Source: Tardiphaga sp. P9-11 (GTDB lineage: Bacteria > Pseudomonadota > Alphaproteobacteria > Rhizobiales > Xanthobacteraceae). From it: a DNA stretch of 64,000 nucleotides. Location: contig NZ_NPKQ01000002.1 in the NCBI RefSeq assembly GCF_008329525.1, positions 1,240,001 through 1,304,000 on the forward strand, written 5' to 3'. Shown here piece after piece: positions 1 through 21,557 of the stretch. Position 1 is the first letter of the stretch. Every line of letters starts with the position of its first letter. Under the pieces are notes generated by a model. The model did no database searches. It saw only the letters and a program-made list of their open reading frames with translations, and was not told the origin of the DNA. A program made the translations under genes and the position numbers.

Positions 1-936
1 CCGCGTGCCAACCGGGCCTATCTGCTGCCGCTGATCGTGTTTGTGATCTTCGCCCTGGTGCCGCTCTCGGCGCTGTGGGGATCGCAGAGCTTCATTCTCG
101 CGCTGGTCACGCGCATCATGATCCTGGCGCTCGCCGCCATGTCGCTCGATCTGCTGATCGGCTACGGCGCGATGATCTCGTTCGGCCATGCCGCCTATGT
201 CGGCCTTGGCGCCTACAGCGTTGCGATCCTCGCCAGCCACGGCATCACCGACGGCTTCATCCAGCTTGCGGTGGCGCTCGGTGTCTCGCTCATCTTCGCT
301 CTCTTCACAGGCGCGATCTCGCTGCGGACCAAGGGCGTCTATTTCATCATGATCACGCTGGCTTTCGGCCAGATGCTGTTCTTCCTCGGCACTTCGCTGG
401 CTGCCTATGGCGGCGACGACGGGCTAACGCTGGCATCGCGCAGCATGTTCTTCGGCTCGAAGTTCCTGAAGAACGATGTGGCGATGTATTACGTCGCCTT
501 CGGCGTGCTGCTCGGTGCTTATCTGCTGCTCCGCGCCATCGTCGCGTCACGCTTCGGTCGGGTGCTACGCGGCATTCGCGAGAATCCCGTACGTATGGAA
601 GCGATCGGCTTTGCGCCCTATCGCTATCAGCTCACCGCCTACGTCATTGCCGGCATGATCGCCGGCGTATCCGGGTTTCTGCTTGCCAACCAGACCGAAT
701 TCGTCAGCCCCGCCTATACGGCCTGGCAACGCTCCGGCGACCTGATCTTCGTACTCGTGCTCGGCGGACTCGGCTCGCTGCATGGCGCGATCATTGGCGC
801 CGCGGTGTTCAGCCTGCTCGCAGATATCCTGTCGCACTATACGGAGAACTGGGCGCTGATCTTCGGACCCATCCTCATTCTCGTCGTGCTCTACGCCCGC
901 GGCGGCATCACCGGACTGTTCGGGAGCAAGTCATGA
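1..936 (+). CDS. livM: Branched-chain-type ABC transporter permease LivM (5' end cut off)
   Basis: Membrane permease of a high-affinity branched-chain amino acid/aromatic acid type ABC importer. The frame is already open at base 1, so the true start lies left of the window; a GTG at 37 is only an internal codon choice. The visible 311 residues are mostly hydrophobic helices, with the family-typical segments LDLLIGYGAMISFGHAAYVG near the N-terminus and LGGLGSLHGAIIGA near the C-terminus. It overlaps livG by ATGA at 933-936. LivK and LivH partners would lie upstream, out of view. LivFGHMK systems in this group often import aromatic acids, and the catabolic genes that follow support that here; the actual substrate is inferred. 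Confidence 0.93.
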   Translation, partial: PRANRAYLLPLIVFVIFALVPLSALWGSQSFILALVTRIMILALAAMSLDLLIGYGAMISFGHAAYVGLGAYSVAILASHGITDGFIQLAVALGVSLIFALFTGAISLRTKGVYFIMITLAFGQMLFFLGTSLAAYGGDDGLTLASRSMFFGSKFLKNDVAMYYVAFGVLLGAYLLLRAIVASRFGRVLRGIRENPVRMEAIGFAPYRYQLTAYVIAGMIAGVSGFLLANQTEFVSPAYTAWQRSGDLIFVLVLGGLGSLHGAIIGAAVFSLLADILSHYTENWALIFGPILILVVLYARGGITGLFGSKS

Positions 937-1685
937 GCAGCGCTCCGCTTCAACTGCAGAACATCTGCAAGAATTACGGCGCGCTGCGCGTCACCGACGA
1001 CGTGTCGCTGAATATCGAGGCCGGCGAATTGCACGCCATCATCGGCCCTAACGGCGCCGGCAAGACCACGCTGATCCACCAGATCTCCGGACACGCACAA
1101 TCGGACTCCGGCCGCATTATCTTTGACGGCCAGGACGTCTCGCGCTTGCCAATGGCAGAGCGTGCGCGGATGGGTCTGGTGCGCTCTTTCCAGATCACCT
1201 CGATCCTGCCGCGCTTCTCCGCGCTGGAGAACGTCGCCATCGCCGTGCAGGCGCGCAGCGGATCGAGCTTCAGTTTCTTCGGCAATGCGTCGAAGGAGCC
1301 GGCACTGAACGACACCGCCATGGCCCTGCTGTCGCGCTTCGGCCTCGCCGCCCGCGCAAGCGTACCGGCCGGGCAGATGTCGCATGGCGAGAAACGCCAG
1401 CTTGAAATCGCCATTGCACTGGCGGCGAAGCCAAAGCTGCTGCTGCTCGACGAACCGCTCGCTGGCACCAGCCACGATGAATCGCAGCGGCTGATCAATA
1501 CGCTGCAGGAGCTGCGCAAGGAGCTTCCCATCGTGCTGATCGAGCACGATATGGACGCCGTCTTCGCACTGGCTGACCGCGTCTCGGTCCTCGTTTACGG
1601 CCGCATCATCGCCTCCGGTTCGCCGCAGAGCATTCGTGACAATGCGGAAGTCCGCGCTGCCTATCTCGGCGAGGAGGCCGCCTGA
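933..1685 (+). CDS. livG: ABC transporter ATP-binding protein LivG
   Basis: First ATPase subunit (250 aa) of the Liv-type importer, driving transport on the cytoplasmic face. Walker A GPNGAGKTT lies around residues 38-46, the signature region reads SHGEKRQLEIA (a variant of LSGGE), and Walker B is LLLLDEPLAG followed by an IEHDMD switch. The ATG at 933 is chosen because it overlaps the livM stop (ATGA) and because residues from there match the family N-terminus; the reading frame is open further upstream but only in the shadow of livM. The stop overlaps the livF start (TGATG), so livM-G-F are translationally coupled. Confidence 0.94.
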   Translation: MSSAPLQLQNICKNYGALRVTDDVSLNIEAGELHAIIGPNGAGKTTLIHQISGHAQSDSGRIIFDGQDVSRLPMAERARMGLVRSFQITSILPRFSALENVAIAVQARSGSSFSFFGNASKEPALNDTAMALLSRFGLAARASVPAGQMSHGEKRQLEIAIALAAKPKLLLLDEPLAGTSHDESQRLINTLQELRKELPIVLIEHDMDAVFALADRVSVLVYGRIIASGSPQSIRDNAEVRAAYLGEEAA

Positions 1686-2443: not shown

Positions 2444-2899
2444 ATGAAAACCGAGATCGCCGGCATCACCCGCGCCAATGAGGGCATGCAGGGCATCACC
2501 TGGAACATTCTCGGCCAGACCTATGTGCCGAAGAACTGCAGCGAGGACTCGTTCTCGTGGCACGCCACGTTCCCGCCCGGCACCTTCGTGCCGCCGCACA
2601 TCCATCCCGACCAAGACGAATATCTCTACATCCTCGAAGGCAAACTCGACTTCTTCCTCGGCGGCTCCGAGACCTCGGCTACGCCGGGCGATCTGGTGCG
2701 CCTGCAGCGCGGCATTCCGCACGGCATCTTCAACAAGTCCGATCAGAACGCGAAGGTGCTGTTCTGGGTTTCGCCGAGCCGCCGGCTCTACGATCTGTTC
2801 TGGGCGATCCACAACATGAAAGAGCAGAAGCCCGAGGACGTTGTGGCGCTTGCTGCCGAATACAACATCCACTTCCTGCCGCCGCCTCCCGGCGCGTAA
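2444..2899 (+). CDS. Small cupin-domain protein (copy 1)
   Basis: Single-domain cupin of 151 residues. The expected metal-binding set is present: His52, His54 and Glu59 in the first cupin motif (HIHPDQDE) and His93 in the second (GIPHG). It is clearly paralogous to the cupin at 9856-10305: both begin with a shared TWNILGQ segment, place the four ligands at identical residue numbers, and share GIPHG and LFWVSP blocks. The RBS AAGGAAGGA is close to the ATG. Function unknown; small cupins in such clusters can be dioxygenases, isomerases or carrier/folding factors. Placement after livF and before a convergent hydroxylase operon ties it to the aromatic locus. A bidirectional terminator follows. 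Confidence 0.85.
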   Translation: MKTEIAGITRANEGMQGITWNILGQTYVPKNCSEDSFSWHATFPPGTFVPPHIHPDQDEYLYILEGKLDFFLGGSETSATPGDLVRLQRGIPHGIFNKSDQNAKVLFWVSPSRRLYDLFWAIHNMKEQKPEDVVALAAEYNIHFLPPPPGA

Positions 2900-2993: not shown

Positions 2994-4244
2994 TCAGCCG
3001 TTCACCACGGCCAGCCCGGGCTGCGCAGCAAAGCCGGCCTTGTGCGCATAGCCCTTCACGATGGCTTCACGCTGCGCGTAGCTCAGCACGTTCTCGACAT
3101 TGTCAAAACCATCTGGGGCGATCTGCTCGACCGCATCGATGACGCCTTCCGGACCACCGCGGCGGTTGGAGCGCACGATCTCCGCGGTCATCGGCAGGCG
3201 CTTGCGCTCATAAGCCATCAGCGCCTGGCGCGGATGTTCGGCATGAGCCAGCGAGTCGGCTAGCGCGCGCGCATCGAGGATCGCCTGCGATGCGCCGTTG
3301 GAGCCGACCGGATACATCGGATGCGCGGCGTCGCCGAGCAGCGTGACGCGGCCGCCCGACCAGTATGGCAGCGGATCGCGGTCGCAGCAGGGATATTCCC
3401 AGAACTCAGGCGTCGCCGTGATCAGCGCGGGCACGTCGATATGCGGCACATTGAAACGCGCCACATGCGGCATCAGTTCTTCGCGCTTGCCGGCGCGAGA
3501 CCAGTCTTCGCGGCGCGGCGGCAGCGTGCCGCCCTCGCCGGTTTTCACCAACACGGCCCAATTGGTCAGCCGGTTGCCGGCCGTCTCGCCTTCAGCGATC
3601 GGATAGACCACGACCTTGGCATGGAGGCCACCGGCGACGATCATCGAATTTCCGGTCAGGAACGCCGGCCAGTCGCGCGCACCGCGCCACAGCATCAGGC
3701 CGTTCCAAACCGGATGCCCCTCGTTCGGGAACAACGTGCTGCGCACCTTGGAGTGGATTCCGTCGGCTCCGATCAGGATATCGCCGCGCGCAGTCTCGAC
3801 ATGATTGTTGTTGCGATCGAAGAAATAAGCCGTGACGCCGCCTTCGTCCTGCGTGAAGTGGCCGAGCCGGCGACCGGTGTGGATCACCTCGGCGCCAAGG
3901 CGCTCTTCGACCGCGCGATGGATCGTGGTTTGCAGCCGCCCGCGATGGATCGAGAATTGCGGCACGTCGTGGCCCGCGCCGAAGCCGCGCTTCTCACGCC
4001 AGACTTCCTGGCCGTGGCGGTTGAGATAGTGCAATTCATCGGTACGGATCGCGACCGCATCGAGCCTGTCGAGCAGACCGAGGCTGGCGAGTTCGCGGAT
4101 CGCGTGCGGCAGCGTGTTGATGCCGACGCCGAGTTCGCGGATCGAGTCAGCCTGTTCGTAGAGTTCGCAATTGATGCCGCGTGCCCGCAACATCAAGGCG
4201 GTGGTCAGACCGCCAACGCCGCCACCTACGATGATCGCTTTCAT
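2994..4244 (-). CDS. FAD-dependent aromatic hydroxylase (salicylate/3-hydroxybenzoate hydroxylase type)
   Basis: Group A flavoprotein monooxygenase of 416 residues. The N-terminal FAD-binding motif GGGVGGLTTAL follows directly after MKAIIV; the middle has the NAD(P)H/FAD contact DILIGADGIHSKVR, and the C-terminal half has the ribose-binding VTLLGDAAHP. Such enzymes insert one oxygen atom into phenolic or amino-aromatic rings with NAD(P)H. It lies 58 bp downstream of the fused monooxygenase/reductase on the same strand, so both are probably one operon under the operator at 6688-6701. It could hydroxylate the free acid before or the product after CoA activation. The exact substrate cannot be read from the sequence. 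Confidence 0.85.
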   Translation of the reverse strand: MKAIIVGGGVGGLTTALMLRARGINCELYEQADSIRELGVGINTLPHAIRELASLGLLDRLDAVAIRTDELHYLNRHGQEVWREKRGFGAGHDVPQFSIHRGRLQTTIHRAVEERLGAEVIHTGRRLGHFTQDEGGVTAYFFDRNNNHVETARGDILIGADGIHSKVRSTLFPNEGHPVWNGLMLWRGARDWPAFLTGNSMIVAGGLHAKVVVYPIAEGETAGNRLTNWAVLVKTGEGGTLPPRREDWSRAGKREELMPHVARFNVPHIDVPALITATPEFWEYPCCDRDPLPYWSGGRVTLLGDAAHPMYPVGSNGASQAILDARALADSLAHAEHPRQALMAYERKRLPMTAEIVRSNRRGGPEGVIDAVEQIAPDGFDNVENVLSYAQREAIVKGYAHKAGFAAQPGLAVVNG

Positions 4245-4302: not shown

Positions 4303-6654
4303 TCATTCAGCTGCAAGTGGCTTTGCCGCCTCCGCCCGCATCTCGGCGCGGGTCTTCGGCTTAGCCTTAATTTTCAGGTCTTCGAAATCCTGCTTGTCCC
4401 TGACGCTGTTGCGGAAAATCTGGTCCTTGCCGGGCATATATTGCGGCGGGCAATAGGCGTCCTTTGCACCGTACCAAGCGGCCGCCTTGATGGTGAAGGA
4501 CGGGTCGGTCAGGTGCGGACGGCCAAGCGCGACGAGGTCCGCACGGCCGGCGGCCAGGATCGTGTTGACCTGATCGGCGGACGTGATGTTGCCGACGCAC
4601 ATGGTGGCGACGCGGGCCTCGTTGCGGACCTGATCCGAGAACGGCGTCTGGAACATGCGGCCATAGATCGGACGCGACTCCTTCACCGTCTGCCCCGTCG
4701 AAATATCGGCAAGATCGACGCCGGCTTCGGCGAAGGCGCGCGCGATTTCCACGGCATCGTCGCCGGTGTTGCCGCCTTCGGCCCAATCGGTCGCCGAGAT
4801 ACGCACCGACATCGGCTTGTGCACGGGCCATGCCGCGCGCATCGCGGTGAACACTTCGAGCGGGAAGCGCAGACGGTTCTCGAGCGAGCCACCATATTCA
4901 TCGGTGCGTTTGTTGGTCAGCGGCGACAGGAAGCTCGCCAGTAGATAGCCGTGCGCGGTGTGCATCTCGAGCATGTCGAAGCCGCAGCGATCGCCGCGGA
5001 TCGTCGCTGCCACGAACTCGGCCTTAACGCGATCCATGGCCGTACGGTGGATTTCCGCGGGCACCTGGCTGTCCGGATAATAGGGCAGCGGCGACGCCGA
5101 TACGATGTCCCAAGCGCCGTCGGCGAGCGGGCGGTCCATGCCGTCCCACATCAGCCTGGTCGCCCCCTTGCGGCCGGCATGGCCGAGCTGCAGACAGATC
5201 TTGGCGGCCGACGTGTTGTGCACGAAGTCGACAATGCGCTTCCACTGCGCTTCCTGCTCGTCGGTCCAGAGACCGGCGCAGCCGGGCGTGATGCGTGCGT
5301 CACGGCCGACGCAGACCATTTCGGTGAAGATGAGACCGGCACCACCAATGGCACGCGAGCCGTAATGCACCAGATGGAAATCGTTCGGCACGCCCTCTTC
5401 CGCCGAATACATGCACATCGGCGAGACGACCGCGCGGTTCGCCAGCACCATATCCCGCATCTTGAACGGCTGGAACATCGGCACCTCGGGCTTCGCGAGA
5501 TCGACGTCGAAGCCCTGCGCCTTCACCTTCTGCGCAAATGACTTGTCGACTTCCTTGACGAAGTCAGGCGCGCGCAAGGTCAGGTTATCGTAGGTGATCG
5601 CCTTGGCACGGGTCATCACACCAAATGCGAATTGCACCGGGTCGAAATCCCAAAAACGATCGACGTGCTCGAACCAGACCAGCGAGACGTCGGCGGAGTG
5701 CTGGATCTTCTCGGTCTCCTCGCGGCGACCATGTTCGTATTCATACAGCCCAGCTTCAACAGTGGGCGCCTTCGCCATTGCGTCATGCAATGCGATGGCA
5801 TCTTCCATGGCGAGCTTAGTGCCGGAGCCGATGGAGAAATGTGCCGTCGCCTTGGCGTCGCCGAGCAACACCATGTTGTCTTTGACCCAGCGCTTGTTGC
5901 GGATCATCGGGAAGTTGCGCCACATCGAACGGTTGATCAGTAGCTTGTGGTCGCCGAGGAAGCCCTTGAAGATATCGTGCATGCGATCAGCCGATTCCTG
6001 CTCGCCGAGGCCTTCGAGGCCGGCGCGCTTGAAGGTCTCCGGATCAGTCTCGAAGATCCAGGTCGAGCGGCCAGCCTCATACTGATAGGCGTGCGCAATA
6101 AACGGCCCCCACTCGGTTTCCTGGAACAGGAAGGTGAAAGCATCGAGCGGCTTGGTTGAGCCCATCCACGTGAACTTGTTTGAGCGCAGATCCACTTCCG
6201 GCGAGAAGTGCTCGATATATTTGTTGCGGAAGTGGCTGTTGATGCCATCGGCCAGCACGATCAGATCCGCATCGGCAAAACGCGCTTCGTCGGTGATATC
6301 GACTTCGAACAGCAGATGGACGCCGAGTTCGCGGGCCCGGTCCTGCAGGATCATCAACAGCGTGCGGCGCGAACAGCCGCAGAAGCCGTTGCCGCCGACG
6401 CGATGGACAGTGCCGCGGAAGTGCACGGCGATGTCATCCCAGTAGGCGAATTCCTGGGTGATGCGCTGATAGCTCGGAAGATCGTATTTCTCGAAGTTAT
6501 CGAGGGTAGCGTCGGAGAACACCACACCGAAGCCGAAGGTGTCATCGGGACGGTTACGCTCATAGACCGTGATCTCTGCCTGCGGCCGCTGCTTCTTCAG
6601 CAGGATCGCAGAATAGAGGCCCGCCGGCCCGCCACCGATAATCGCGATCTTCAT
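4303..6654 (-). CDS. Fused aryl-CoA monooxygenase / Old Yellow Enzyme reductase (2-aminobenzoyl-CoA monooxygenase/reductase type)
   Basis: Two-domain flavoenzyme of 783 residues. The first ~400 residues are a salicylyl-CoA-5-hydroxylase-like FAD monooxygenase ([13 protein letters not shown] at the N-terminus, [32 protein letters not shown]). The second half is an NADH:flavin oxidoreductase/OYE barrel ([48 protein letters not shown]). This fusion is known from 2-aminobenzoyl-CoA monooxygenase/reductase of Azoarcus evansii, which hydroxylates and then reduces the ring, giving an alicyclic CoA ester that is broken down like a fatty acid. The ATG at 6654 is used because GGAGG precedes it and residues from MKIAIIGGG start the FAD fold; a longer frame upstream has no RBS. 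Operator at 6688-6701 lies in its promoter region. Confidence 0.9.
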
Positions 6655-6687: not shown

Positions 6688-6701
6688 TTTTAAACCTAAA
6701 A
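6688..6701 (-). promoter_or_regulatory. Operator site A (shared aromatic-locus palindrome)
   Basis: On the minus strand it reads TTTTAGGTTTAAAA, an inverted repeat TTTTA/TAAAA with a 4-nt spacer, 34-47 bp upstream of the fused monooxygenase/reductase start. It matches four other sites in the locus (8509, 13170, 13305, 21633). Such AT runs stand out in this GC-rich DNA. MarR- or TetR-type dimer binding is inferred. Confidence 0.65.
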
Positions 6702-6807: not shown

Positions 6808-7659
6808 TCAGTTGCCCTCGAACTTCGGCTTCTGCTTGTTCGCAAAGGCATGGAACGCCCGCGCGAAATCCTCGGTGGTCATGCACAGGGCCTGGGCCAC
6901 GGCCTCGGCCTCGATGGCTTCTTCGATCGACATTGCCCATTCCATCGACAGCATCCGCTTGGTCATGGTGTTGGCATAGGTCGGGCCTTCGGAAATCTGT
7001 TTCGCCAGTGTCTGTGACTGGCTCAGCACCTCCGCAGGCGCAACGATGCGGCTGAAGAAGCCCCAGCGCTCGCCTTCCTCGGCGCTCATGAAGCGACCGG
7101 TATAGAGCAGCTCCGACGCACGGGACTGGCCGATGATGCGCGGCAGGATCGCACAGGCGCCCATATCGCAGCCGGCCAGGCCCACCTTGTTGAACAGGAA
7201 GCCGACCTTGGTGCCGGTCGCAGCCAGACGCATATCGGAGGCCATCGCCATGATTGCGCCAGCGCCAGCACAGATGCCCTCCACCGCGGCGATGATCGGC
7301 TGCGGGCAGGCTCGCATCGCCTTGACCAGATCGCCGGTCATGCGTGTGAAGGCGGTAAGATCCTTGGTGTTCATCTCAATCAGCGGACCGATGATCTCGA
7401 ACACATCGCCGCCCGACGAGAAATTTCCGCCGGCGCCGGTGACGACAACGACCTTGACGTCGTCATCCATCGCGCAAGCACGGAAGAAATCGGTCAGTTC
7501 GCGGTAGCTCTGGAAGGTCAGCGGATTTTTGCGCTCAGGCCGGTTCAGCGTCACCGTCGCGATACCATCGGCCACCGCCAGCAGGAAATGCTCGGGCTTG
7601 AACTCGGCCAGCGGCAGCGTAACGGGATTGGCGACCTTGTTCTTGACCATGACAGACAT
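6808..7659 (-). CDS. Enoyl-CoA hydratase/isomerase (crotonase) family protein
   Basis: Crotonase-fold protein of 283 residues acting on a CoA thioester. The oxyanion-hole segments are visible: [11 protein letters not shown] around residues 76-85 and [16 protein letters not shown] around 127-142. By manual alignment the two glutamates of classical enoyl-CoA hydratase are replaced (Ile136 and Lys158), while an Asp at 165 (GCDMGA) is kept, so hydration may not be its reaction; isomerase, ring hydrolase or another crotonase chemistry is possible. The ATG at 7659 has CAGGGAG upstream. It lies 44 bp downstream of the SDR gene and is likely co-transcribed with it, supplying a beta-oxidation-like step after ring reduction. 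Confidence 0.88.
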
Positions 7660-7703: not shown

Positions 7704-8465
7704 TCAAACTTCGCCGCCGGCGACCGCGATGCTCTGTCCGGTGACGGAACTGGCGCCAGTGCCGCACAGCCACAACACGGCATCGGCGACTTCGCCGGGC
7801 GTCACCAGACGTCCCTGCGGATTGTGCTTCGCCAATTCGGCAACAGCTTGTTCGCGTGTGCGACCGGTCTTGCTCATGATATTGTCGATGCTGCCTTCGA
7901 GTAGATCGGTTTCGGTGAAGCCCGGGCAGACCGCATTCACGGTGACACCGCTCTTTGCGACTTCCAGCGCCACCGAGCGTACCAGACCGATAACGGCGTG
8001 CTTCGCTGCACTATAGGCGCTGACATAGCCGTAACCCTTGAGGCCAGCCGTCGACGCCACCGCGACGATGCGGCCACTCTTGCGCTTGACCATCTCCGGC
8101 AACACAGCCTGCGCCGCATAGACGACGCCCATGAAATTGACGTCCATCATACGCTGAAACAGGGCAGTATCGGACTTCACGAACGGCGCAGATTCTGCAG
8201 CACCTGCGTTGGCGACCAGAATATCGATCGGCTGACGTTTCGCCGCATCCGCAATCGCGGCATTCAGCGCGGCCTGATCGGACACATCAGCGGCGACGGC
8301 ATGATGCGCGTCACCAGCAGCGACGACCTCGCTCAGCACCGCGAGATTGCGGCCTATGATAGTGACGGTCGCGCCGGCCTGTACCAGCGATGCCGCGATG
8401 GCGCGGCCAATGCCGCGACCGCCGCCGGTCACCAGAGCGTGGGAGGAGCGAGACAATCCGGACAT
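7704..8465 (-). CDS. Short-chain dehydrogenase/reductase (SDR), probable 3-hydroxyacyl-CoA or alcohol dehydrogenase
   Basis: Classical SDR of 253 residues. The Rossmann motif TGGGRGIG is at 13-20, the NAG motif (VANAGAAES) near 85-93, and the catalytic Ser138-Tyr151-Lys155 set (STAG, YSAAK) is intact, so it should be an active NAD(P)-dependent oxidoreductase. The C-terminus ends in the typical GQSIAVAGGEV. It is first in a two-gene unit with the crotonase and has operator site B 44-57 bp upstream of its start. In the inferred pathway it would oxidise or reduce a hydroxyl/keto group on the reduced ring CoA ester; another 3-hydroxyacyl-CoA dehydrogenase is encoded at 18121. Confidence 0.88.
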   Translation of the reverse strand: MSGLSRSSHALVTGGGRGIGRAIAASLVQAGATVTIIGRNLAVLSEVVAAGDAHHAVAADVSDQAALNAAIADAAKRQPIDILVANAGAAESAPFVKSDTALFQRMMDVNFMGVVYAAQAVLPEMVKRKSGRIVAVASTAGLKGYGYVSAYSAAKHAVIGLVRSVALEVAKSGVTVNAVCPGFTETDLLEGSIDNIMSKTGRTREQAVAELAKHNPQGRLVTPGEVADAVLWLCGTGASSVTGQSIAVAGGEV

Positions 8466-8508: not shown

Positions 8509-8522
8509 TTTTAAACTTCAAG
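8509..8522 (-). promoter_or_regulatory. Operator site B (shared aromatic-locus palindrome)
   Basis: Minus-strand sequence CTTGAAGTTTAAAA, same pattern and almost the same distance to the start codon (44-57 bp upstream of the SDR gene) as site A. Confidence 0.6.
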
Positions 8523-9619: not shown

Positions 9620-9855
9620 TATCCATGTCGCGTCACGCCGCATAGCCGGCGCCTCGCCGTAAATGTTGCCGTGCTGCACAATGAATGCGCAGGCAGTCCG
9701 CCGCCAAAGACGAGTGTGCAGCGCAGCGTGGCCAGGCCCTCGGTTGCACCGGTAATTTATTTCGTCGTTTGGATAGCGGATTCGTTCAACGGCTAGAGAC
9801 AAGTCACGAGGTCACGCAGCATTCTTGCAGACGTGAAACCCAAGGGAGCAGGACC

Positions 9856-13169: not shown

Positions 13170-13183
13170 TTTTAAACCTAAAG
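13170..13183 (-). promoter_or_regulatory. Operator site C (shared aromatic-locus palindrome)
   Basis: Minus-strand CTTTAGGTTTAAAA, 36-49 bp upstream of the acyl-CoA dehydrogenase start; differs from site A by one base. Confidence 0.65.
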
Positions 13184-13304: not shown

Positions 13305-13318
13305 CTTTAAGTCTAAAA
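13305..13318 (+). promoter_or_regulatory. Operator site D (shared aromatic-locus palindrome)
   Basis: CTTTAAGTCTAAAA on the plus strand, 67-80 bp upstream of the hydrolase GTG start. Sites C and D lie 121 bp apart in the same divergent promoter region, one serving each direction. Confidence 0.65.
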
Positions 13319-13384: not shown

Positions 13385-14212
13385 GTGCCAAATTCTGCAG
13401 CCCTGACGACGAAGGACGGCCGCTTCGGCTTTGAAGCCAAAGGCGATTCCGCAGCAACGCCGCTGGTGTTTCTCCATGGGATCGGCGGCGCCGGCCGCGG
13501 CTGGCGCCACCAGATCGATACATTCGGCGACCGCTATTACGCTATCGGCTGGGACATGCCGGGCTATGGCGGCTCGGCGCAGCTACCGGCGCCAAGCATT
13601 CCGGCTTTCGCCGAAGCGCTGAAGGATTTTCTCGCACAGATCGGCGCCGTGAAGCCCGTACTGGTCGGTCATTCCATCGGCGGCATGATCGTACAGCGGT
13701 TCATGGTCGACTATCCCGATCTCGCCGGCGCCATCGTGCTCGCTCAGACGACCTCGGCCTTCGGCAGTTCAGACGGCGAATGGCAAAAGAACTTCATCGA
13801 CGCCCGGCTTGGCCCGCTCGACCGCGGCGAGACCATGGTCTCGATGGCGCCGAAGCTGGTCGCGGGCCTGATCGGCGATGATGCAGATCCTGCCGGCCTT
13901 GAACTCGCACGCGACTGCATGGCCTCCGTCAAGCCCGACACCTATCGCGCTTCGATGAAGGCGATGATCGGCTTCGATCTGCGCAAGAACATCGCGGACA
14001 TCAAAATACCGACTTTAGTCCTATCCGGTTCAAAAGACAACAACGCTCCGGCAAAGACGATGGCAAAGATGGCAGGCCTCGTGCCCGGCTCGACCTATGT
14101 CGAACTCGAAGGCGTCGGCCATCTCGCCAGCTTCGAACGTCCACACGAATTCAATGAAGTACTCGCCGACTTCCTCAAAACCAGCCACAACCTTTCGGGG
14201 TCAACCTCATGA
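13385..14212 (+). CDS. Alpha/beta hydrolase (enol-lactonase/CoA-ester hydrolase type)
   Basis: 275-residue alpha/beta hydrolase with an intact triad by inspection: nucleophile Ser97 in GHSIGG, acid Asp218 (SGSKDNN) and His246 (GVGHLASF), plus the oxyanion HGIGG near residue 31. It resembles 3-oxoadipate enol-lactonase and meta-cleavage hydrolases, which cleave C-C, lactone or thioester bonds. The start is GTG at 13385 because a perfect AGGAGG sits 7 nt upstream; upstream in-frame codons lie inside the promoter. It is the first gene of a six-gene plus-strand operon and its stop overlaps the next start (ATGA). Confidence 0.87.
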
Positions 14213-15492
14213 ACAAGCCTGCCAGCAAGCCCGACCTCGACAGCATCGTCCTCGATAAGCCGATGTTCGATCCCAAGGCTCATCGTCTCGATGACGAACA
14301 GGCCGGGTTGATCACCAAGGCGCGCGAGCTGGCGCAGGCCAATTTCGCTGGCCGCGCCGCGAAGTGGGATACCGAGGCCACCTTTCCGCTGGAGAACTAC
14401 AAGGACCTGCACAAGGCGGGCCTGCTGGGTATCTCGATCCCGAAAGCCAATGGCGGTTCGGGCGCCGGCTATCAGACCTATTCGCTCGCTGCTGCCGAAA
14501 TCGGCCGCTATTGCGGCGCTACCGCGCTGACCTGGAACATGCATGTCTGCTCGACGCTGTGGTCCGGCCCACTCGCCGATGACCTCGACATGGATGACCA
14601 GATGCGCGCCGAACAGCACCGCCGCCGCGCCATCCACTACAAGCGCATTGTCGAAGACGGCGCGATCTATTCGCAGCCGTTCTCCGAAGGCGGCGCAGCA
14701 GCTGCCGGCGGCGTAGCCTTCGGCACCGAAGCCAGGCCCGTCAAGGGCGGCTGGATCGTCAACGGCAAGAAGATCTTCGCGTCGCTGTCGGGCTTCGCCG
14801 ATTACTACGGCGTACTCTGCACTGAGGTAGCCGAGGGCGAAAAGGCTTCACGCCGTAACACGCTGTATCTTGCGATCTCGGCCAAGTCCGAAGGCGTCTC
14901 GGTCGTCGGCGACTGGGATCCGCTCGGTATGCGCGGCACGGTTTCGCGTACGCTGATCTTCAAGGACGTATTTGTCCCGGAAGACGCAGCTCTGATGCCG
15001 CGCGGCGTCTATTTCCAGGCAGCGATGCGCTGGCCACACATGTTCCTGACGCTGTCGCCAACTTACGTTGGCCTCGCGCAGGCCTCCTACGATTTCACCG
15101 TGAAGTATCTCCGCGGCGAAATCCCGGGCATGCCGCCGGTCAAGCGCCGGATGTATCCGACCAAGCAGATTGCCGTCGCGCAAATGCAAATCAAGCTCGA
15201 ACAGCTCAAGTCGACCTGGTTCCAGGCCGTGACCGAAGCCTGTGCCAATCCGAGCAAGGAGCAGGTGCTGCGCGCCTACGCCGCTCAGTACACCGTGATG
15301 GAAGGCGCCAACGAACTTGCCGCACTGGCAATCCGAACCTGCGGCGGCCAGGCCATGCTGAAGACGCTGCCGCTGGAGCGCATCTATCGCGACAGCCGCT
15401 GCGGCGCGCTGATGCTGCCCTGGACCGCCGAACTCTGCCTCGACCGTATCGGTCGCGAAGCACTCTACGAGGCCGGCGAGAAAGACGAGTAA
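14209..15492 (+). CDS. Acyl-CoA dehydrogenase-fold flavoprotein lacking the usual catalytic Glu
   Basis: 427-residue protein of the acyl-CoA dehydrogenase superfamily: N-terminal helical domain, a mid-domain with PFSEGGAAAAGG and NGKKIFASLSGFADYY, and the C-terminal helical domain. Where the companion enzyme at 11962 has YEGATE with the catalytic glutamate, this one reads YRDSRCGALMLPW around residues 393-405, so the base is missing at the canonical place. It may use a base elsewhere or be an oxygenase-like or non-dehydrogenating flavoprotein. It overlaps the hydrolase gene by ATGA and is followed 2 bp later by the acyl-CoA ligase, so it belongs to the core catabolic operon. Confidence 0.85.
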   Translation: MNKPASKPDLDSIVLDKPMFDPKAHRLDDEQAGLITKARELAQANFAGRAAKWDTEATFPLENYKDLHKAGLLGISIPKANGGSGAGYQTYSLAAAEIGRYCGATALTWNMHVCSTLWSGPLADDLDMDDQMRAEQHRRRAIHYKRIVEDGAIYSQPFSEGGAAAAGGVAFGTEARPVKGGWIVNGKKIFASLSGFADYYGVLCTEVAEGEKASRRNTLYLAISAKSEGVSVVGDWDPLGMRGTVSRTLIFKDVFVPEDAALMPRGVYFQAAMRWPHMFLTLSPTYVGLAQASYDFTVKYLRGEIPGMPPVKRRMYPTKQIAVAQMQIKLEQLKSTWFQAVTEACANPSKEQVLRAYAAQYTVMEGANELAALAIRTCGGQAMLKTLPLERIYRDSRCGALMLPWTAELCLDRIGREALYEAGEKDE

Positions 15493-15494
15493 TC

Positions 15495-17033
15495 GTGGAT
15501 CTCTCGAGCCTCATCGCACGCAACGCCGCATTCACGCCGGACAAGCCCGCGATTCATTTTGAGGGCGAGACGCTCAGCTATACCGCGTTCAACACGCGGA
15601 TCGAGGCCACGGCGAAGGCACTGAAGACAGAATGCGGCGTCGGTCGCGGCGATCGCGTCGCGATCCTGAGCCTGAACAGGCCGGACTATCTCGTACTGCT
15701 CTATGCCTGCGCGCGGCTTGGCGCGATCATGGTGCCGCTGAACTGGCGGCTCGCGGTTGCCGAGCAATTGTTCATCCTCTCCGACGCCTCGGTGAAGGTG
15801 CTGGTGCTGGAAGAAGGCTTTGCGGCGATCCTGCCATCGCTTGCGAAGGATTTGCCGGACACCCGCGTGGTCGCGTTCGACTTCACACCACCTGCGCCCG
15901 GCCAGACACTCGACACCCTGCTGTCCCGCGCCTCCGGCGATGGCCGTAATCCGCATACCGATCTCTCCTGCCCGCTGCTGATCGTTTACACGTCGGGCAC
16001 CACCGGTCGCCCGAAAGGCGCCGTACTGCGCCAGGAAGCGCTGCTGTGGAACGGCGTGATGAGCCAGCACATGCATGGCCTCACCTCGGACGATCACGTG
16101 CTGACCGTGCTGCCGTTCTTCCATGTCGGCGGCCTCAACATCCAGACGACACCGGCGCTGCATCATGGCGCGAGCGTCACGATCCATGCGCGCTTTACGC
16201 CGGACTCGACGCTCGCAGCGATCGCGCGGGAGCGCCCGACATTGACCGTCTGGGTACCCGCGCTCATCCAGGCGATGACCGAGCATCCCGGCTGGGCTCC
16301 GACCGATGTGTCCTGCCTCAAGGCCGTGTCCACCGGCTCCAGCATCGTGCCGCCGCATCTGATCGAACGCCTGACCAAGCGCGGCATTCCGGTGCTACAG
16401 GTCTATGGCTCGACCGAGACCTGCCCGATCTCGGTCTATACGCGGCTCGGCGGCGACCTGTCGCGTACGGGATCGACGGGTTTGCCTGGCCTGTGCTGCG
16501 AAGCCATCATCATCGACGACAACGGCAACGAGCTGCCTGCCAAGGCCACCGGCGAGATCGCGGTGCGCGGCCCCAACGTGTTCTACGAATATTGGGGCAA
16601 CGAGGCCGCGACGCGCGAGGCGCTTCATGACGGTTGGTATCGCACCGGCGATATCGGCACACGCGATGATGACGGTTATTTCTGGGTCCACGACCGCAAG
16701 AAGAACATGATCATTTCCGGCGGCGAGAACGTCTATCCCGCCGAGGTCGAGCGCGTGCTGCTCGAACATCCTGATGTCGCCGATGTCGGCGTTGTCGGCG
16801 TGCCCGATCCCAAATGGCAGGAAGTGCCCGTTGCCTATGTCCTGCTGCGGCCAAATTGCAGCGTGACGGCCGAGGCGCTGAAGGCCCATGTTCTGACGCA
16901 GCTCGCGCGCTACAAGCAGCCGCGCGACATCGTATTCGTTACAGATTTGCCGCGCACGGCGCTCGGCAAGGTGCAGCATTTCAGACTGAAGCAGGTTCAG
17001 GCGGGAACGCCGAGCGACGGAGAGACCAATTGA
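15495..17033 (+). CDS. AMP-forming acyl/aryl-CoA ligase
   Basis: 512-residue ANL-superfamily ligase that activates a carboxylic acid to its CoA thioester with ATP. Motifs in order: TSGTTGRPKG (about 166-175, phosphate loop), VYGSTETCP (adenine/acid site), DGWYRTGD, GENVYPAEVE (hinge), and RTALGKVQHF with the expected catalytic lysine near the C-terminus. The start is GTG at 15495, two bases after the previous stop. It is the only CoA ligase in the locus and is therefore the best candidate for activation of the aromatic acid imported by the Liv system, although side-chain or alicyclic acids cannot be excluded. Its stop overlaps the TTG start of the next gene. Confidence 0.9.
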   Translation: MDLSSLIARNAAFTPDKPAIHFEGETLSYTAFNTRIEATAKALKTECGVGRGDRVAILSLNRPDYLVLLYACARLGAIMVPLNWRLAVAEQLFILSDASVKVLVLEEGFAAILPSLAKDLPDTRVVAFDFTPPAPGQTLDTLLSRASGDGRNPHTDLSCPLLIVYTSGTTGRPKGAVLRQEALLWNGVMSQHMHGLTSDDHVLTVLPFFHVGGLNIQTTPALHHGASVTIHARFTPDSTLAAIARERPTLTVWVPALIQAMTEHPGWAPTDVSCLKAVSTGSSIVPPHLIERLTKRGIPVLQVYGSTETCPISVYTRLGGDLSRTGSTGLPGLCCEAIIIDDNGNELPAKATGEIAVRGPNVFYEYWGNEAATREALHDGWYRTGDIGTRDDDGYFWVHDRKKNMIISGGENVYPAEVERVLLEHPDVADVGVVGVPDPKWQEVPVAYVLLRPNCSVTAEALKAHVLTQLARYKQPRDIVFVTDLPRTALGKVQHFRLKQVQAGTPSDGETN

Positions 17034-18124
17034 AGATCGCAGTATTGGGTGGCGGCAACGGTTCCTTCGCAGCCGCGGGTGATTTCGCATTGCAGGGCCA
17101 TGATGTCCGCTTGTGGCGTCGCGATACCGAGGCTGTTGCCGAACACAAGAAGGCCGGCTCGCGCATCAAGGTCAAGAATGCGCAGGGCACCCACGATACG
17201 CAATTGACGCTGGTGACGACGGATATTGCTGAAGCGATCAAGGACGTCGAACTGATCCTCTGCCCCGCACCAGCCTTTGCGCAGCCCGATATCGCCAAGC
17301 GGATCGCGCCTCACCTCAAGGACGGTCAGGTCGTCTATCTGCCGCCGGCCACCTTCGGCTCAATGATTTTCGCCAAGGCCGCGCACGACGCCGGCAACAC
17401 CGCCAAGGTCGCTTTCGCCGAGACGGGCACGCTGCCCTGGCTGGCGCGCAAGCATGGCCCGTTCGAGGTCGCTATCACCATCCGCGCCAAGCGGCTCCCG
17501 ACCGGCGTGTTCCCGCTTCACATGATGGACTACGCCTGCAAAGTCATCGACAAGGCCTTCCCCGGCGTCATCGAGCCGTGTGGTGACGCGCTGTCCGGCG
17601 CGCTGATGAATGCCGGCCCGATCATCCATCCGCCGCTGATCGTGATGAATGCCGGACCATTGGAGCATTTCCCGACCTGGGACATTCACAAGGAGGGTAC
17701 GCAGCCCGCGATCCGTCGCGTCACCGATGCGCTCGATGCCGAGCGCATCGCGATCCGCGAGGCCTTCGGGTACAACGGCGCGCATTTCCCGCTAGCAGAC
17801 CACTACGCCAAGGAAGGCGAAGAGTGGATGTATGGCCGTGGCTCGCATGATCGCCTGACCGACTCAGGTGACTGGCGCGAGCATATCGTGCTGACCGAGC
17901 ATCGCTACATGCGCGAGGATCTGCGCACTGGCCTGTCGTTCTTCCTGTCCTGCGCTACGCTCGCCGGCGTGGAGACACCGCTGGTCAAGGCGTTCCTCGC
18001 CATCGGCGGCGCGATCTGCGGCGAGAACTTCCTCGAAGGCGGCCGCACGCTCGACAGCCTCGGCTTCGGCAAGCTCGACCGCGCCGGTCTGTTGAAGCTG
18101 CTGCGCGAAGGCTTTGCCGCATGA
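17030..18124 (+). CDS. NAD/NADP octopine/nopaline dehydrogenase-like protein
   Basis: 364-residue oxidoreductase with an N-terminal Rossmann domain (KIAVLGGGNGSFAAAGD, GGGNGS at residues 7-12) and a C-terminal helical opine dehydrogenase domain (NAGPIIHPP, EHFPTWDIHKEG, conserved His). Opine dehydrogenases reductively join an amino acid to a 2-keto acid, or oxidatively cleave the secondary amine. The start is TTG at 17030: it overlaps the ligase stop (TTGA), has GGAG just upstream, and puts the Rossmann motif right at the N-terminus. Its place between ligase and 3-hydroxyacyl-CoA dehydrogenase, joined by overlaps, implies a role in the aromatic pathway, perhaps on a C-N bond. Confidence 0.86.
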   Translation: MKIAVLGGGNGSFAAAGDFALQGHDVRLWRRDTEAVAEHKKAGSRIKVKNAQGTHDTQLTLVTTDIAEAIKDVELILCPAPAFAQPDIAKRIAPHLKDGQVVYLPPATFGSMIFAKAAHDAGNTAKVAFAETGTLPWLARKHGPFEVAITIRAKRLPTGVFPLHMMDYACKVIDKAFPGVIEPCGDALSGALMNAGPIIHPPLIVMNAGPLEHFPTWDIHKEGTQPAIRRVTDALDAERIAIREAFGYNGAHFPLADHYAKEGEEWMYGRGSHDRLTDSGDWREHIVLTEHRYMREDLRTGLSFFLSCATLAGVETPLVKAFLAIGGAICGENFLEGGRTLDSLGFGKLDRAGLLKLLREGFAA

Positions 18125-19104
18125 GCATTCGTCCCGCCATCGCATGTCTCGGCGCAGGTCGCATGGGCCGCGGCATTGCCGTCGCCTTTGCCTATGCCGG
18201 CCACAATGTCGCGATAGTCGACTTCAAGGCGCGCTACGCCGACAAGTTCAAGGCGCTGGAAGCCGAGGCGCTCGGCGAGATTCGCAAGACTTTTGCCAGC
18301 ATGGCGCGCTTCGGCCTGCTCACTGAAGCCGACATTGAGACGCTGGTGTCGCGCGTCATCGTCGTCCCGGAAGCAGGTGCCGGCGCCGCGCTGAGCAGCT
18401 CTGCGATCATCTTCGAAGGCGTACCTGAAGTGCTCGATCAGAAGCGTGACGCGCTGGCCCGCGCGTCACAGCTCGCTGGTCCCTCACCGGTCATCGCATC
18501 GACGACCTCCACCATTCTGGTCGACGATATCTCCAGCGCCGTCGAGCATCCCGAACGCTTTCTCAATGCGCACTGGCTGAATCCGGCCTATCTCGTGCCG
18601 CTGGTCGAAGTCTCGCCAGGCGCCAAGACCGATCCGGCGGTCACCGCGCGGGTGAAGGAGATGCTCGAAGGCATCGGCAAAGTGCCGGTGGTTTGCGCCG
18701 CGACGCCCGGCTATATCGTACCGCGTATCCAGGCGATGGCCATGAACGAAGCGGCACGCATGGTCGAGGAAGGCGTTGCGAGCCCCGAGGATATCGACAA
18801 GGCGATCAAATACGGTTTCGGATTCCGCTTCGCGGTGCTGGGCCTGCTTGAATTCGTCGATTGGGGCGGCGGCGATATTCTGTACTACGCCAGCAAGTAC
18901 CTGACCGGTGCACTGAACAACGATCGCTATTCGTCGCCGGAGATCGTCGGCCGCAATATGGCCGAGGGCAAGATCGGCCTCAAGACCGGCGAAGGCTTCC
19001 TCAATTACGAGGGGCTCGATGTCGATGCCTATCGTGAAGGACGGCTGTCGGCCTTCGTGGATCTGCTGAAGCACTTTCAGCTGCAGAAGCCGCCGGTGCT
19101 TTGA
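18121..19104 (+). CDS. 3-hydroxyacyl-CoA dehydrogenase family protein
   Basis: 327-residue NAD-dependent dehydrogenase with an N-terminal 3HCDH_N Rossmann domain (CLGAGRMGRGIAVAFAYAG, residues 9-27) and a C-terminal 3HCDH domain (ATPGYIVPRIQAMAMNEAAR, then KTGEGFLNY). The AHWLNPAYLVPLVEV segment carries the His of the family's catalytic His-Glu pair. It oxidises a 3-hydroxyacyl-CoA to the 3-ketoacyl-CoA. It overlaps the opine dehydrogenase gene by ATGA and ends the plus-strand operon. With two acyl-CoA dehydrogenase-fold proteins, a crotonase and this enzyme the locus has most of a beta-oxidation set but no visible thiolase. Confidence 0.9.
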   Translation: MSIRPAIACLGAGRMGRGIAVAFAYAGHNVAIVDFKARYADKFKALEAEALGEIRKTFASMARFGLLTEADIETLVSRVIVVPEAGAGAALSSSAIIFEGVPEVLDQKRDALARASQLAGPSPVIASTTSTILVDDISSAVEHPERFLNAHWLNPAYLVPLVEVSPGAKTDPAVTARVKEMLEGIGKVPVVCAATPGYIVPRIQAMAMNEAARMVEEGVASPEDIDKAIKYGFGFRFAVLGLLEFVDWGGGDILYYASKYLTGALNNDRYSSPEIVGRNMAEGKIGLKTGEGFLNYEGLDVDAYREGRLSAFVDLLKHFQLQKPPVL

Positions 19105-19121: not shown

Positions 19122-19886
19122 CTACACCTCCGGAAATCCGCGCAGCAGATAGCTGCGCAGCCAGTGCAGCAGGCTGTTCAGGATCAGACCGAGCATCGAG
19201 ATCATGATCAGGGGCACGAACATGTCCACGGTCTGGAACGTACGCGCGGCCTGCACCAGCATGTGACCGAGACCGTCGGTCGAGGTGATCATCTCGGCCA
19301 GGAACACCACGATGCAGGAGATCACGAGGCCGATGCGGCAGCCGGTGAGGATCGACGGCATCGCGGCGGGCAGCACCACCTTGAACAGGATCTGCCAGCG
19401 CGGCGTGCCGGCGGCCATCGCCGACCAGATCAGCTTCTGCTCGACCATCGACGCGCCGTAATAGGTCGAGAGCAGGATCGGAAACAGTGCGTCGGCGGTG
19501 ACGAGCGTGATCTTGGAGGCGTGGTCGAAGCCGAGGATCAGCAGCAGTGCCGGGTACAGCGCGATCTTCGGAATCGGCGCCAGCACGCGCACCAGCGGCT
19601 TGACCACAGCATTGATCGCCGGACTCACCGCTGCGGCAAGACCGATGAATACGCCGACAACGACCGCGATGCCGAAGCCGGCGAACAGACGGATCAGGGT
19701 CGCGGCGATATCGTGCAGGAAGTCGCCGTTGAAGAAGTCCTTCGCCAGCTTGCCGAACACGGCGCCCGGCGGCGGCAACAGGCTCGTCGGCGCGAAGCCA
19801 AAAGAGATCAGCGACTGCCACAGCGCGATGAACAGCACGATCGGCGTGATGCCCAGCAGAACCGAATTGATGCGTGTCTGGGTCAT
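19122..19886 (-). CDS. ABC transporter permease, NitT/TauT (SsuC/TauC-like) type, second copy
   Basis: 254-residue inner-membrane permease with about six hydrophobic helices and the EAA-type loop typical of this family (MAAGTPRWQILFKVVLPAA, followed by GCRIGLVIS). Such permeases import sulfonates, nitrate, pyrimidine precursors or aromatic acids. The ATG at 19886 is chosen over an upstream ATG because the upstream gene ends at 19894 and the hydrophobic N-terminus begins here. It is the last of three genes read ATPase-permease-permease. No periplasmic binding protein is encoded next to it. Confidence 0.87.
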   Translation of the reverse strand: MTQTRINSVLLGITPIVLFIALWQSLISFGFAPTSLLPPPGAVFGKLAKDFFNGDFLHDIAATLIRLFAGFGIAVVVGVFIGLAAAVSPAINAVVKPLVRVLAPIPKIALYPALLLILGFDHASKITLVTADALFPILLSTYYGASMVEQKLIWSAMAAGTPRWQILFKVVLPAAMPSILTGCRIGLVISCIVVFLAEMITSTDGLGHMLVQAARTFQTVDMFVPLIMISMLGLILNSLLHWLRSYLLRGFPEV

Positions 19887-19893
19887 GTTGCGC

Positions 19894-20676
19894 TCACGTG
19901 AAGCTGAGAGGCATGTCGTCACGCGGTTGCGACCAGCGCACCAGTGACAAGCGAAGCTTCTCGAAGGCCGCATCGAAGACGATGCCCATGGCGCCGATGA
20001 TCAGGATCATGGCGAACACTGTGTCGTATTGCGCCATGTCGAGCGAGTTGAACAGGATGTTGCCCGCGCCAGACTGGCGCGCGATCATCTCGGAGGTGAT
20101 CATCGTGATCAATGCCAGCACCAGACCGGTGCGGCAGCCCGTGAGAATTTCGGGCAGCGCCGCGGGCAGCACGATACGCAGCATGCGCATCGGCGCCGAC
20201 ATCCCCATCGCAGCACCGGACCACAGCATCTTCTCTTCGACGGCCTTGGAGCCCTGGAAGGCATGATAGATGATCGGCAGCGAGACGCCGAGGAAGATAA
20301 CGAGGATCTTGGAGACGTCGCCGACGCCCATCCACAGCATGATGATGGGCATCAGCGCCGCTTTCGGCACCGGATAGATGATCATCATCAGCGGATTGAA
20401 GAAGGCCGCGACGGCCTTGATGCGCCCCATCAGCAAACCGAGCGGGATCGCAAACATCACCGCGAGCACGAGGCCGATGGCCATGCGACGGATGGAATCG
20501 AGAATGTTCAGCAGCGATCCCTTGTCGCCGAGAATCGATGGAATGGCCTTGATCGCCTCCAGCGCGGTCGGAGAGCTTTCGGTATCCAGCCGCAGCGAGG
20601 CAATCTGCCAGACACACAGCAAGCCGATGCAGGCGAACAATGGCGAAAGTGTCTTGAGCACCCCGCGCACGGTCAT
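19894..20676 (-). CDS. ABC transporter permease, NitT/TauT type, first copy
   Basis: 260-residue inner-membrane permease with a signal-anchor-like first helix and the family EAA loop (AAMGMSAPMRMLRIVLPAA, then GCRTGLVLALITM). It pairs with the permease at 19122, so the transporter has a heterodimeric membrane part. The ATG at 20676 overlaps the stop of the ATPase gene (TGATG); a GTG one codon earlier is an alternative start. Role inferred: uptake of a substrate of the adjacent pathway. Confidence 0.87.
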   Translation of the reverse strand: MTVRGVLKTLSPLFACIGLLCVWQIASLRLDTESSPTALEAIKAIPSILGDKGSLLNILDSIRRMAIGLVLAVMFAIPLGLLMGRIKAVAAFFNPLMMIIYPVPKAALMPIIMLWMGVGDVSKILVIFLGVSLPIIYHAFQGSKAVEEKMLWSGAAMGMSAPMRMLRIVLPAALPEILTGCRTGLVLALITMITSEMIARQSGAGNILFNSLDMAQYDTVFAMILIIGAMGIVFDAAFEKLRLSLVRWSQPRDDMPLSFT

Positions 20677-21557
20677 CACAGATGATCCTTGCCGCCATCG
20701 TCGATCATCTTCTCGATATCGACGATGTATTTCTGGAAGCGCGCATCGAGCAAGAGGTCAGCACGCTTGCGCGGTCGCGGCAGGTCGATATCGACAATCT
20801 GCTTGATCGAGCCGGGCGAGCGCGACATCACGATCACCTTGTCAGAGAGATAGACGGCTTCCTCGACCGAATGCGTCACGAACAACACGGTCTTGCGCTG
20901 ACGATCCCAGATATCGAGCAGATCGTTCTGCAGCCGCGTGCGCGTATGCGCATCGAGCGCGCCAAACGGCTCGTCCATCAGCAAGACAGCAGGATCATAG
21001 GCGAGCGTACGTGCAATCGCGACGCGCTGTTTCATGCCGCCGGAGAGTTCTTTCGGATAGAAATTCTCGTAGCCCTTGAGGCCAACCATTTCCAAGAGCT
21101 TGCGGCCACGGGCTTCCGCTTCGGCCCTCTTCACGCCCTGCTGGCGCAGGCCGTACATGACGTTGCCGAGCACGTTCTTCCACGGGAACAGCGCGAATTC
21201 CTGAAACACCGGACCGCGGTCGGGACCCGGTCCCGTGATCGCCTTACCCTTCACCTTGGCCACGCCATCGGTCGGCTGCACGAAGCCACCGACAATATAG
21301 AGCAAGGTCGACTTGCCGCAGCCTGAAGGTCCAAGGATCGAGACGAAGGCGCCGTCTTCGATGGTGAGGTTGATATCCGACAGCGCCAGATGGCTTTGCT
21401 TGCCGGAGGTCTGGAAGCGCTGCGAGACGTGATCGATCTCGATCATCGCCGCTGCAGAATCGACACCGGAAGATTTGCGGCCGGAAACCGGTTCCGCATC
21501 AGTGTGAGCGTCCGAACGTAGCGACACCACCTGCATTCCCGGTCCTTCATTTGCCAT
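20676..21557 (-). CDS. ABC transporter ATP-binding protein, NitT/TauT (SsuB/TauB-like) type
   Basis: 293-residue ATPase. Walker A GPSGCGKST, signature LSGGMKQRVAIARTL, Walker B VLLMDEPFGALDAHTR and switch VTHSVEEAVYL are all intact. About 38 residues precede the usual domain start (MIEIDHVSQRF), making the N-terminus longer than typical; a start at an internal Met is possible. It heads the transporter operon, with operator site E 76-89 bp upstream of the annotated start, which ties the importer to the same regulon as the catabolic genes. Confidence 0.9.
   Translation of the reverse strand: MANEGPGMQVVSLRSDAHTDAEPVSGRKSSGVDSAAAMIEIDHVSQRFQTSGKQSHLALSDINLTIEDGAFVSILGPSGCGKSTLLYIVGGFVQPTDGVAKVKGKAITGPGPDRGPVFQEFALFPWKNVLGNVMYGLRQQGVKRAEAEARGRKLLEMVGLKGYENFYPKELSGGMKQRVAIARTLAYDPAVLLMDEPFGALDAHTRTRLQNDLLDIWDRQRKTVLFVTHSVEEAVYLSDKVIVMSRSPGSIKQIVDIDLPRPRKRADLLLDARFQKYIVDIEKMIDDGGKDHL

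Follow-up and report, generated by a model that had tools for sequence, protein, structure and literature searches.

A predicted shared operator ties accessory oxygenase, cupin and importer modules to a CoA-dependent anthranilate locus in a Tardiphaga relative

The breakdown of anthranilate as its CoA ester is known from soil bacteria, and a gene cluster of this known type is the subject of the present work. It lies on contig 16 of the 6.16-Mb genome of a Tardiphaga relative and was analysed in a 64-kb window (contig positions 1240001-1304000). According to the accessible parts of a review covering Azoarcus evansii (PMC4539516) and of the genome paper of Arthrobacter sp. Rue61a (PMC3534580), the route employs a CoA ligase, a fused 2-aminobenzoyl-CoA monooxygenase/reductase (ACMR) and a RidA protein and proceeds through CoA thioesters, features that the focal locus shares. 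As far as the latter source goes, the ligase of Rue61a was expressed and is active on anthranilate, and the strain, in which such a fusion is encoded, can grow on anthranilate but not on salicylate. The Arthrobacter plasmid pAL1 has an AMP-binding gene and, directly behind it, an ACMR gene; judging from gene order, we take the two to be the verified ligase and the putative ACMR of that study. pAL1 likewise has a monooxygenase, a quinolone dioxygenase, a hydrolase and a cupin near this pair, although its cupin has no match among the focal proteins and its monooxygenase only weak ones. The focal locus differs from the Azoarcus and Rue61a systems in having a MarR protein where those have PaaX-type regulators, and in its extra genes for LIV- and Ssu-type importers, PhzS-like and class B flavin monooxygenases (FMOs), cupins and a NicX-type partner. 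The core itself is known; what is new is the tie of the extra genes to it via a shared palindrome.

The locus lies between about -6.3 kb and 21.65 kb (negative coordinates lie upstream of the window) and runs past the window start on its upstream side; the region examined comprised 82 kb, namely the window and 18 kb further upstream. A repeated palindrome was first noticed by reading the intergenic stretches of the locus. The 82 kb contain its strict form, TTTNARNYTNAAA, at five places, each preceding a gene of the locus: before the upstream ligase, between the MarR gene and the LIV operon, before the ACMR gene (TTTAAACCTAAAA, 6689-6701, 22.7 bits), before the hydrolase operon (TTTAAGTCTAAAA, 13306-13318, 19.3 bits) and before the Ssu-type ABC operon (TTTAAGCTTCAAA, 21634-21646, 22.8 bits). 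Thirty simulated sequences contained none. Relaxing the pattern yields additional sites before the genes of a short-chain dehydrogenase/reductase (SDR; TTTAAACTTCAAG, 8510-8522, 16.0 bits) and an acyl-CoA dehydrogenase (ACAD; TTTAAACCTAAAG, 13171-13183, 16.7 bits), together with one weak site near the MarR gene. Scores derive from a matrix built from 55 distinct sites, seven focal sites included. All seven sites of at least 14 bits in the 82 kb fall inside the cluster, and no site of at least 12 bits was found at 24001-64000 of the window or at -18000..-7000.

Relatives in Bradyrhizobium conserve the palindrome. A looser form, TTTNANNNTNAAA, has 234 sites in the 80 best related loci, which were all anchored on ACMR, and 230 of these sites lie upstream of cluster genes. 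Across the focal genome this form has 35 sites, five of them in the locus, versus 14 for the reversed pattern. A tighter core fits seven of the 35, again with five in this locus; the remaining two lie on contigs 19 and 30, where translations of nearby genes show no evident catabolic role. The matrix was furthermore applied to 40 other loci, which are the stretches fetched of 72 ACMR matches (the 32 left out include most focal-family matches). Within 400 bp upstream of the ACMR gene, 27 of the 40 have a site of at least 15 bits, with 51 hits in the 764 kb overall, and 200 column-permuted matrices gave a mean of 2.3 such loci. No site of at least 14 bits was present in the five loci centred on the opine-dehydrogenase gene.

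Sites also occur in trans. We sampled 15 loci (226 kb) found via the PhzS-like or the class B FMO, 13 of them with ACMR on another contig or far off, one without ACMR (G066) and one with ACMR near (G211). All ten sites of at least 14 bits in this sample are upstream of regulon genes, namely FMO-cupin-LIV sets in G547, G533 and G502, AraC/cupin/FMO sets in the focal-family genomes G334, G217, G504 and G287, and the ligase and hydrolase of G373. Judging from these predicted sites, a single regulon with a shared operator very probably covers the core and the extra modules. A preliminary description of the locus had suspected the extra parts to belong to the same system, and because the common palindrome precedes both core and extra modules, this suspicion is supported here. 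Neither locus nor palindrome turned up in the accessible portions of the literature on 2-aminobenzoyl-CoA in Bradyrhizobium or on MarR/aminobenzoyl-CoA operators, and the text of PMC6449761 makes no mention of 'aminobenzoyl'.

The fusion protein at the center of the locus (4303-6654, minus strand, 783 aa) joins a class A monooxygenase half (PF01494) to an Old Yellow Enzyme half (PF00724). It scores 1120.2 bits against NF006101, above the cut-off of 1078, and is 51.4% identical to the pAL1 ACMR over 759 residues, all of which agrees with the ACMR domain order ascribed to it earlier; the best 60 of 142 PDB matches include no chain spanning both halves. Its closest named loci are those of Tardiphaga robiniae, with a fusion protein at 97-98%. 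A ligase gene had been counted among the neighbors and is indeed present in the window (15495-17033, plus strand, AMP-forming), but we rejected it as the ACMR partner, as it is 28.5% identical to the pAL1 ligase versus 50.5% over 523 residues for a benzoate-CoA-ligase family protein at -5762..-4167. The best PDB relative of this upstream protein is 4WV3, named 'Anthranilate-CoA ligase', and its TIGR02262 score of 370.8 bits is slightly below the cut-off of 375.25. The predicted cognate ligase, and with it the 2-aminobenzoate-CoA ligase of the ACMR pathway, is thus this protein outside the window. In the focal family, a ligase of G373 (locus L176) that adjoins an AraC/cupin/FMO triad is nearer to the canonical one, at 71% to the Paroceanicella protein described below; judging from it, two ligase lineages seem to be present in that family.

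The beta-oxidation-like part of the pathway is represented by a crotonase (6808-7659, minus strand; PRK08258, 467.9 bits, cut-off 330; 61% to the canonical crotonase), the SDR (7704-8465, minus strand; 52% to its canonical counterpart), the ACAD (11962-13134, minus strand; 63% to the canonical one) and RidA (-6255..-5896), which are orthologous to a cluster on a Paroceanicella plasmid. There, the order ACMR-SDR-MarR-crotonase-ACAD-ligase-thioesterase-RidA is followed on the opposite strand by a PhzS-like FMO, a cupin and LIV genes, and the focal MarR (about -3121..-2615), RidA, SDR, crotonase, ACAD, ligase, FMO, cupin and LIV proteins match at 43-73%. A hydrolase upstream of the window (-3950..-3141) is 32% to the pAL1 hydrolase that adjoins the quinolone dioxygenase. 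The model of anthranilate 1,2-dioxygenase, TIGR03228, has no match in the focal genome at E <= 0.001. Given the orthology to the pAL1 ligase/ACMR pair and the recurrent canonical operon, we are highly confident in predicting that the core is the CoA-dependent anthranilate pathway already known, and the CoA-dependent aromatic degradation via ACMR proposed earlier is upheld to that extent.

ACMR (E <= 1e-150) is found in 70 of 398 Pseudomonadota genomes. With a protein counted as present at more than 55% identity, 78 of the 80 related loci have the FMO, 76 each the cupin and the crotonase, 75 the SDR, 73 MarR and 72 the LIV binding protein; these counts are lower bounds, since contig ends or the 10-kb flank truncate many of the loci. 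The canonical neighbors of ACMR thus recur beyond chance. Hydrolase (51 loci), ACAD-fold flavoprotein (51) and in-window-type ligase (48) are less frequent, as are AraC and class B FMO (14 each), and the side of the core on which the latter two lie varies between loci. The class B FMO (E <= 1e-100) occurs in 12 of the 398 genomes, four of them outside the focal family, and all 12 carry ACMR; relatives of the PhzS-like FMO with at least 56% identity occur in 20 genomes, 19 of which have ACMR. Sequence comparison establishes the gene identities, the core orthology, the conserved palindrome and the recurrent linkage.

Among the extra modules, the LIV-type importer begins directly upstream of the window with the binding protein and LivH and continues, on the plus strand, with the permease LivM (1-936, gene start -53) and the ATPases LivG (933-1685) and LivF (1685-2383; the gene call favors a start at 1730), which are 56%, 67% and 70% to Paroceanicella orthologues, that of LivM lying near ACMR. 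It is followed by a cupin with complete metal motifs (2444-2899, plus strand; 66% to the Paroceanicella cupin adjoining the same FMO) and the PhzS-like class A FMO (2994-4244, minus strand; PRK07538, 575.2 bits, cut-off 400), whose best PDB relative is 2rgj and which is 62% to the Paroceanicella FMO. The second module consists of an AraC-family regulator distantly related to AndR (8558-9586, minus strand; NF041686, 152.7 bits, cut-off 350), a paralogous cupin, also with complete metal motifs (9856-10305, plus strand; an upstream ATG at 9685 is possible), and the class B FMO (10422-11924, plus strand).

On the plus strand, the genes at 13385-19104 overlap or almost touch and look like a single operon. 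They encode an alpha/beta hydrolase with a GHSIG motif (13385-14212), an ACAD-fold flavoprotein (14209-15492), the in-window ligase, an opine-dehydrogenase-like oxidoreductase (17030-18124; best PDB relative 1bg6) and a 3-hydroxyacyl-CoA-dehydrogenase-like protein (18121-19104; PRK08269, 505.2 bits, cut-off 427). The last two form a pair that recurs in other alphaproteobacteria with varied neighbors (L099, L100, L101 and L102). Behind them, on the minus strand, lie two Ssu/Tau-type permeases assigned from sequence (19122-19886 and 19894-20676, in 39 and 35 of the 80 related loci) and an ATPase (20676-21446; a start at 21557 is also possible). The preliminary description had named most of these genes, and its crotonase, SDR, two cupins, class B FMO, opine-dehydrogenase-like and 3-hydroxyacyl-CoA-dehydrogenase-like proteins were recovered here, along with the AraC regulator and the alpha/beta hydrolase. 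Its two ABC importers stand insofar as parts of both are in the window, but the Ssu-type importer has no adjoining binding protein; a candidate is on contig 23. Likewise, both of its ACAD-fold proteins are members of the fold, yet only 11962-13134 keeps the catalytic-Glu motif.

In acyl-CoA dehydrogenases, the catalytic Glu sits in an IYEG motif. At this position, the flavoprotein and six orthologues have LMLPWT or LMLPLT, and we rejected it as an ordinary acyl-CoA dehydrogenase on account of the absent motif. Its closest solved chains by sequence and fold include 5z8t, a flavin-containing monooxygenase, among many dehydrogenases; the fold search of its model (pLDDT 83.0) gave dehydrogenases and monooxygenases mixed and did not decide the matter, and that of the hydrolase model gave generic matches. 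Considering also the flavin reductase described below for L143, L145 and L147, the flavoprotein would probably supply the oxygenase component of a two-component hydroxylase. In the accessible part of PMC6221969, acyl-CoA-dehydrogenase-like indole oxygenases are listed, and a 2-aminobenzoyl-CoA cluster is described as vital to anthranilate use during indole degradation.

The flavoprotein occurs in nine of 190 genomes of the class. From the eight other genomes, six stretches have consecutive genes for a NicX-like dioxygenase, hydrolase, flavoprotein and ligase; in three of these (L143, L145 and L147), a flavin reductase gene adjoins that of the NicX partner in divergent orientation. ACMR is present in six of the eight genomes. 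In the distant genome G087, the row lies on one strand directly before ACMR, the ligase match ending about 10 bp before the ACMR match, and the canonical genes then follow. The operator is found in the NicX/flavin reductase promoter of G184 (25.6 bits) and G087 (17.3 bits). All 39 related loci that reach the permease have a NicX-like gene, which in L153 and L154 lies between the 3-hydroxyacyl-CoA-dehydrogenase-like gene and the permease; the 348-aa gene adjoining the permease in Bradyrhizobium was considered as a binding protein and rejected, as it is NicX-like. The focal genome has its NicX, which is 88% to that of L153, on contig 23, together with the SsuA-type binding protein and a flavin reductase that contains a MarR domain. 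A flavin reductase/MarR-domain fusion is divergent from the NicX-like gene in L159 (8487-9488) and resembles the NF045919 model of p-hydroxyphenylacetate 3-hydroxylase reductase (188.3 bits, cut-off 340). L168 (G367) has a more remote flavoprotein/NicX-like pair (50% and 51%), with about 5 kb between it and a PhzS-like FMO homologue and no operator site.

The only PDB relative of the NicX-like protein at E <= 0.001 is 7cn3 (180.9 bits), which is NicX, a 2,5-dihydroxypyridine 5,6-dioxygenase. Like it, the contig 23 partner keeps His265, His318 and Asp320, which we take to be the Fe ligands of 7cn3; unlike it, the partner has a valine at the E177 position. The surrounding genes, with a hydroxylase, a ligase and a link to ACMR, differ from those of nicotinate degradation.

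With these modules at hand, we infer the following mechanism, in which the MarR protein as the palindrome binder, its inducer, the enzyme activities and the substrates are all predictions. The importers would take up anthranilate and precursors, and the upstream ligase would form 2-aminobenzoyl-CoA. MarR would act as a repressor at TTTNARNYTNAAA, presumably released by the CoA thioester. ACMR would then dearomatise the ring, and SDR, crotonase, ACAD and RidA would complete the breakdown. Three further modules would be under the same control: the PhzS-like hydroxylase with its cupin; AraC, cupin and class B FMO, where the palindrome is found in relatives and the focal site is weak; and the hydrolase, flavoprotein and ligase, with the unlinked flavin reductase and the unlinked NicX-type ring-cleaving dioxygenase. 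Patterned on the monooxygenase-dioxygenase-hydrolase set upstream of the ligase and ACMR of pAL1, these modules may act as feeders that hydroxylate an indole- or 4-quinolone-like N-heteroaromatic and cleave its N-ring, such that hydrolysis of the N-acyl product frees anthranilate. The 'modified anthranilate' suggested earlier is a candidate substrate at most, and the presence of the extra oxygenases would be accounted for no less well by precursors that yield anthranilate.

The feeder role is possible, if somewhat short of likely, and a number of findings weigh against it or against the reach of the operator. Thirteen of the 40 other ACMR loci have no operator hit, one of the 200 permuted matrices also reached 27 loci, and the seven focal sites were among those that built the matrix. 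With 35 sites against 14 for the reversed pattern, most strict sites elsewhere in the genome may be due to chance. The focal AraC/cupin region scores 7.2 bits at best, and no site was found at the AraC/cupin/FMO triads of G508, G291 and G211 or at four more distant FMO homologues without cupin/LIV neighbors (G370, G299, G367 and G066). The sites on contig 23 are weak (13.4 bits before NicX, 11.5 bits before the binding protein), considering that simulated sequence yields 1.75 sites of at least 11 bits per 82 kb, and only two of the eight other accessory loci have a promoter operator. Furthermore, the ACMR match of G087 contains one in-frame TGA, the CoA ligase of the accessory operon itself is left unexplained by a feeder role, and five of five other opine-dehydrogenase loci have no ACMR nearby (four have the 3-hydroxyacyl-CoA-dehydrogenase-like gene); three of these five genomes carry ACMR elsewhere. 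Finally, ACMR is absent from two genomes with the accessory core, G125 and G187, hence the accessory product need not be anthranilate. As the feeder role is its weakest step, and in view of the reversed-pattern control and the TGA in G087, we put forward an anthranilate-CoA regulon with feeder modules, taken as a whole, as a tentative explanation. Any single named substrate is decidedly doubtful.

PhzS-type enzymes hydroxylate aromatic acids decarboxylatively. Such a reaction would suit a rather unlikely alternative, in which the accessory oxygenases and dioxygenases serve the downstream salvage of ACMR shunt products such as 5-hydroxyanthraniloyl-CoA or 5-hydroxyanthranilate instead of anthranilate supply. 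The separate ligase of the accessory operon and a thioesterase relative near ACMR in 18 of the 40 loci would fit as well, and 5-hydroxyanthraniloyl-CoA arises under NADH limitation according to the accessible part of PMC3534580. However, the two importers suggest external substrates, the accessory core exists without ACMR in G125 and G187, and the characterised NicX relative 7cn3, by its name, acts on dihydroxypyridine. The same two genomes would also agree with a chance neighborhood of two or three unrelated catabolic clusters, of which only the ACMR core would be the anthranilate pathway, as would the many ACMR genes without adjoining accessory modules and the occurrence of the opine-dehydrogenase/3-hydroxyacyl-CoA-dehydrogenase genes elsewhere with other transporters. 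Yet core and accessory promoters share the palindrome, both here and in related loci as well as in trans, G087 has the accessory genes lined up with ACMR, and only ACMR genomes contain the class B FMO, making mere adjacency quite improbable. Least probable is that the fusion is a salicylyl-CoA 5-hydroxylase of a salicylate-to-gentisate route. Although NF006101 is named bifunctional salicylyl-CoA 5-hydroxylase/oxidoreductase, and most annotated plasmid relatives among the matches listed bear the same name, the cognate ligase is a relative of anthranilate-CoA ligases (a comparison with salicylate-CoA ligases was not made), RidA fits an amino compound, and the growth of Rue61a on the two acids described above points the same way.

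An anthranilate-CoA regulon with feeder modules would resemble iad auxin degradation, which, as far as the accessible parts of PMC9613470 and PMC12633357 describe it, is a MarR-controlled, plant-associated route ending in anthranilate and known in Bradyrhizobium. Unlike in iad, the focal MarR is distant from the Bradyrhizobium auxin MarR (7kym, 23.1 bits) and was rejected as an auxin regulator on that score. No Rieske oxygenase or thiolase was present among the window genes typed; iad was not looked for in the remainder of the genome. Elsewhere in the window, the gene of a 950-aa protein that joins transaldolase and phosphoglucose isomerase domains (36599-39451) is followed by 6PGDH-like and G6PDH genes, and a GlgE/trehalose and glycogen gene run, with a GlgE domain, several alpha-amylase proteins and GlgB, extends over 48355-62392.

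Taken together, the shared palindrome offers a reason why seemingly unrelated oxygenases, cupins and importers are found in some ACMR clusters, and the predicted operator gives a handle for seeking regulon members elsewhere in a genome. A single 2-aminobenzoyl-CoA repressor over three feeder modules of hydroxylases and ring-cleaving enzymes, one of them with a NicX-type dioxygenase acting on a benzo-fused N-heterocycle (e.g. indoxyl to N-formylanthranilate), would amount to a not yet described oxygenase route leading to 2-aminobenzoyl-CoA from compounds of the indole or quinolone type, which we regard as speculative and unlikely. If the feeder reading is true, these modules would hold new enzymes for the breaking of N-heteroaromatic rings in plant-associated bacteria.

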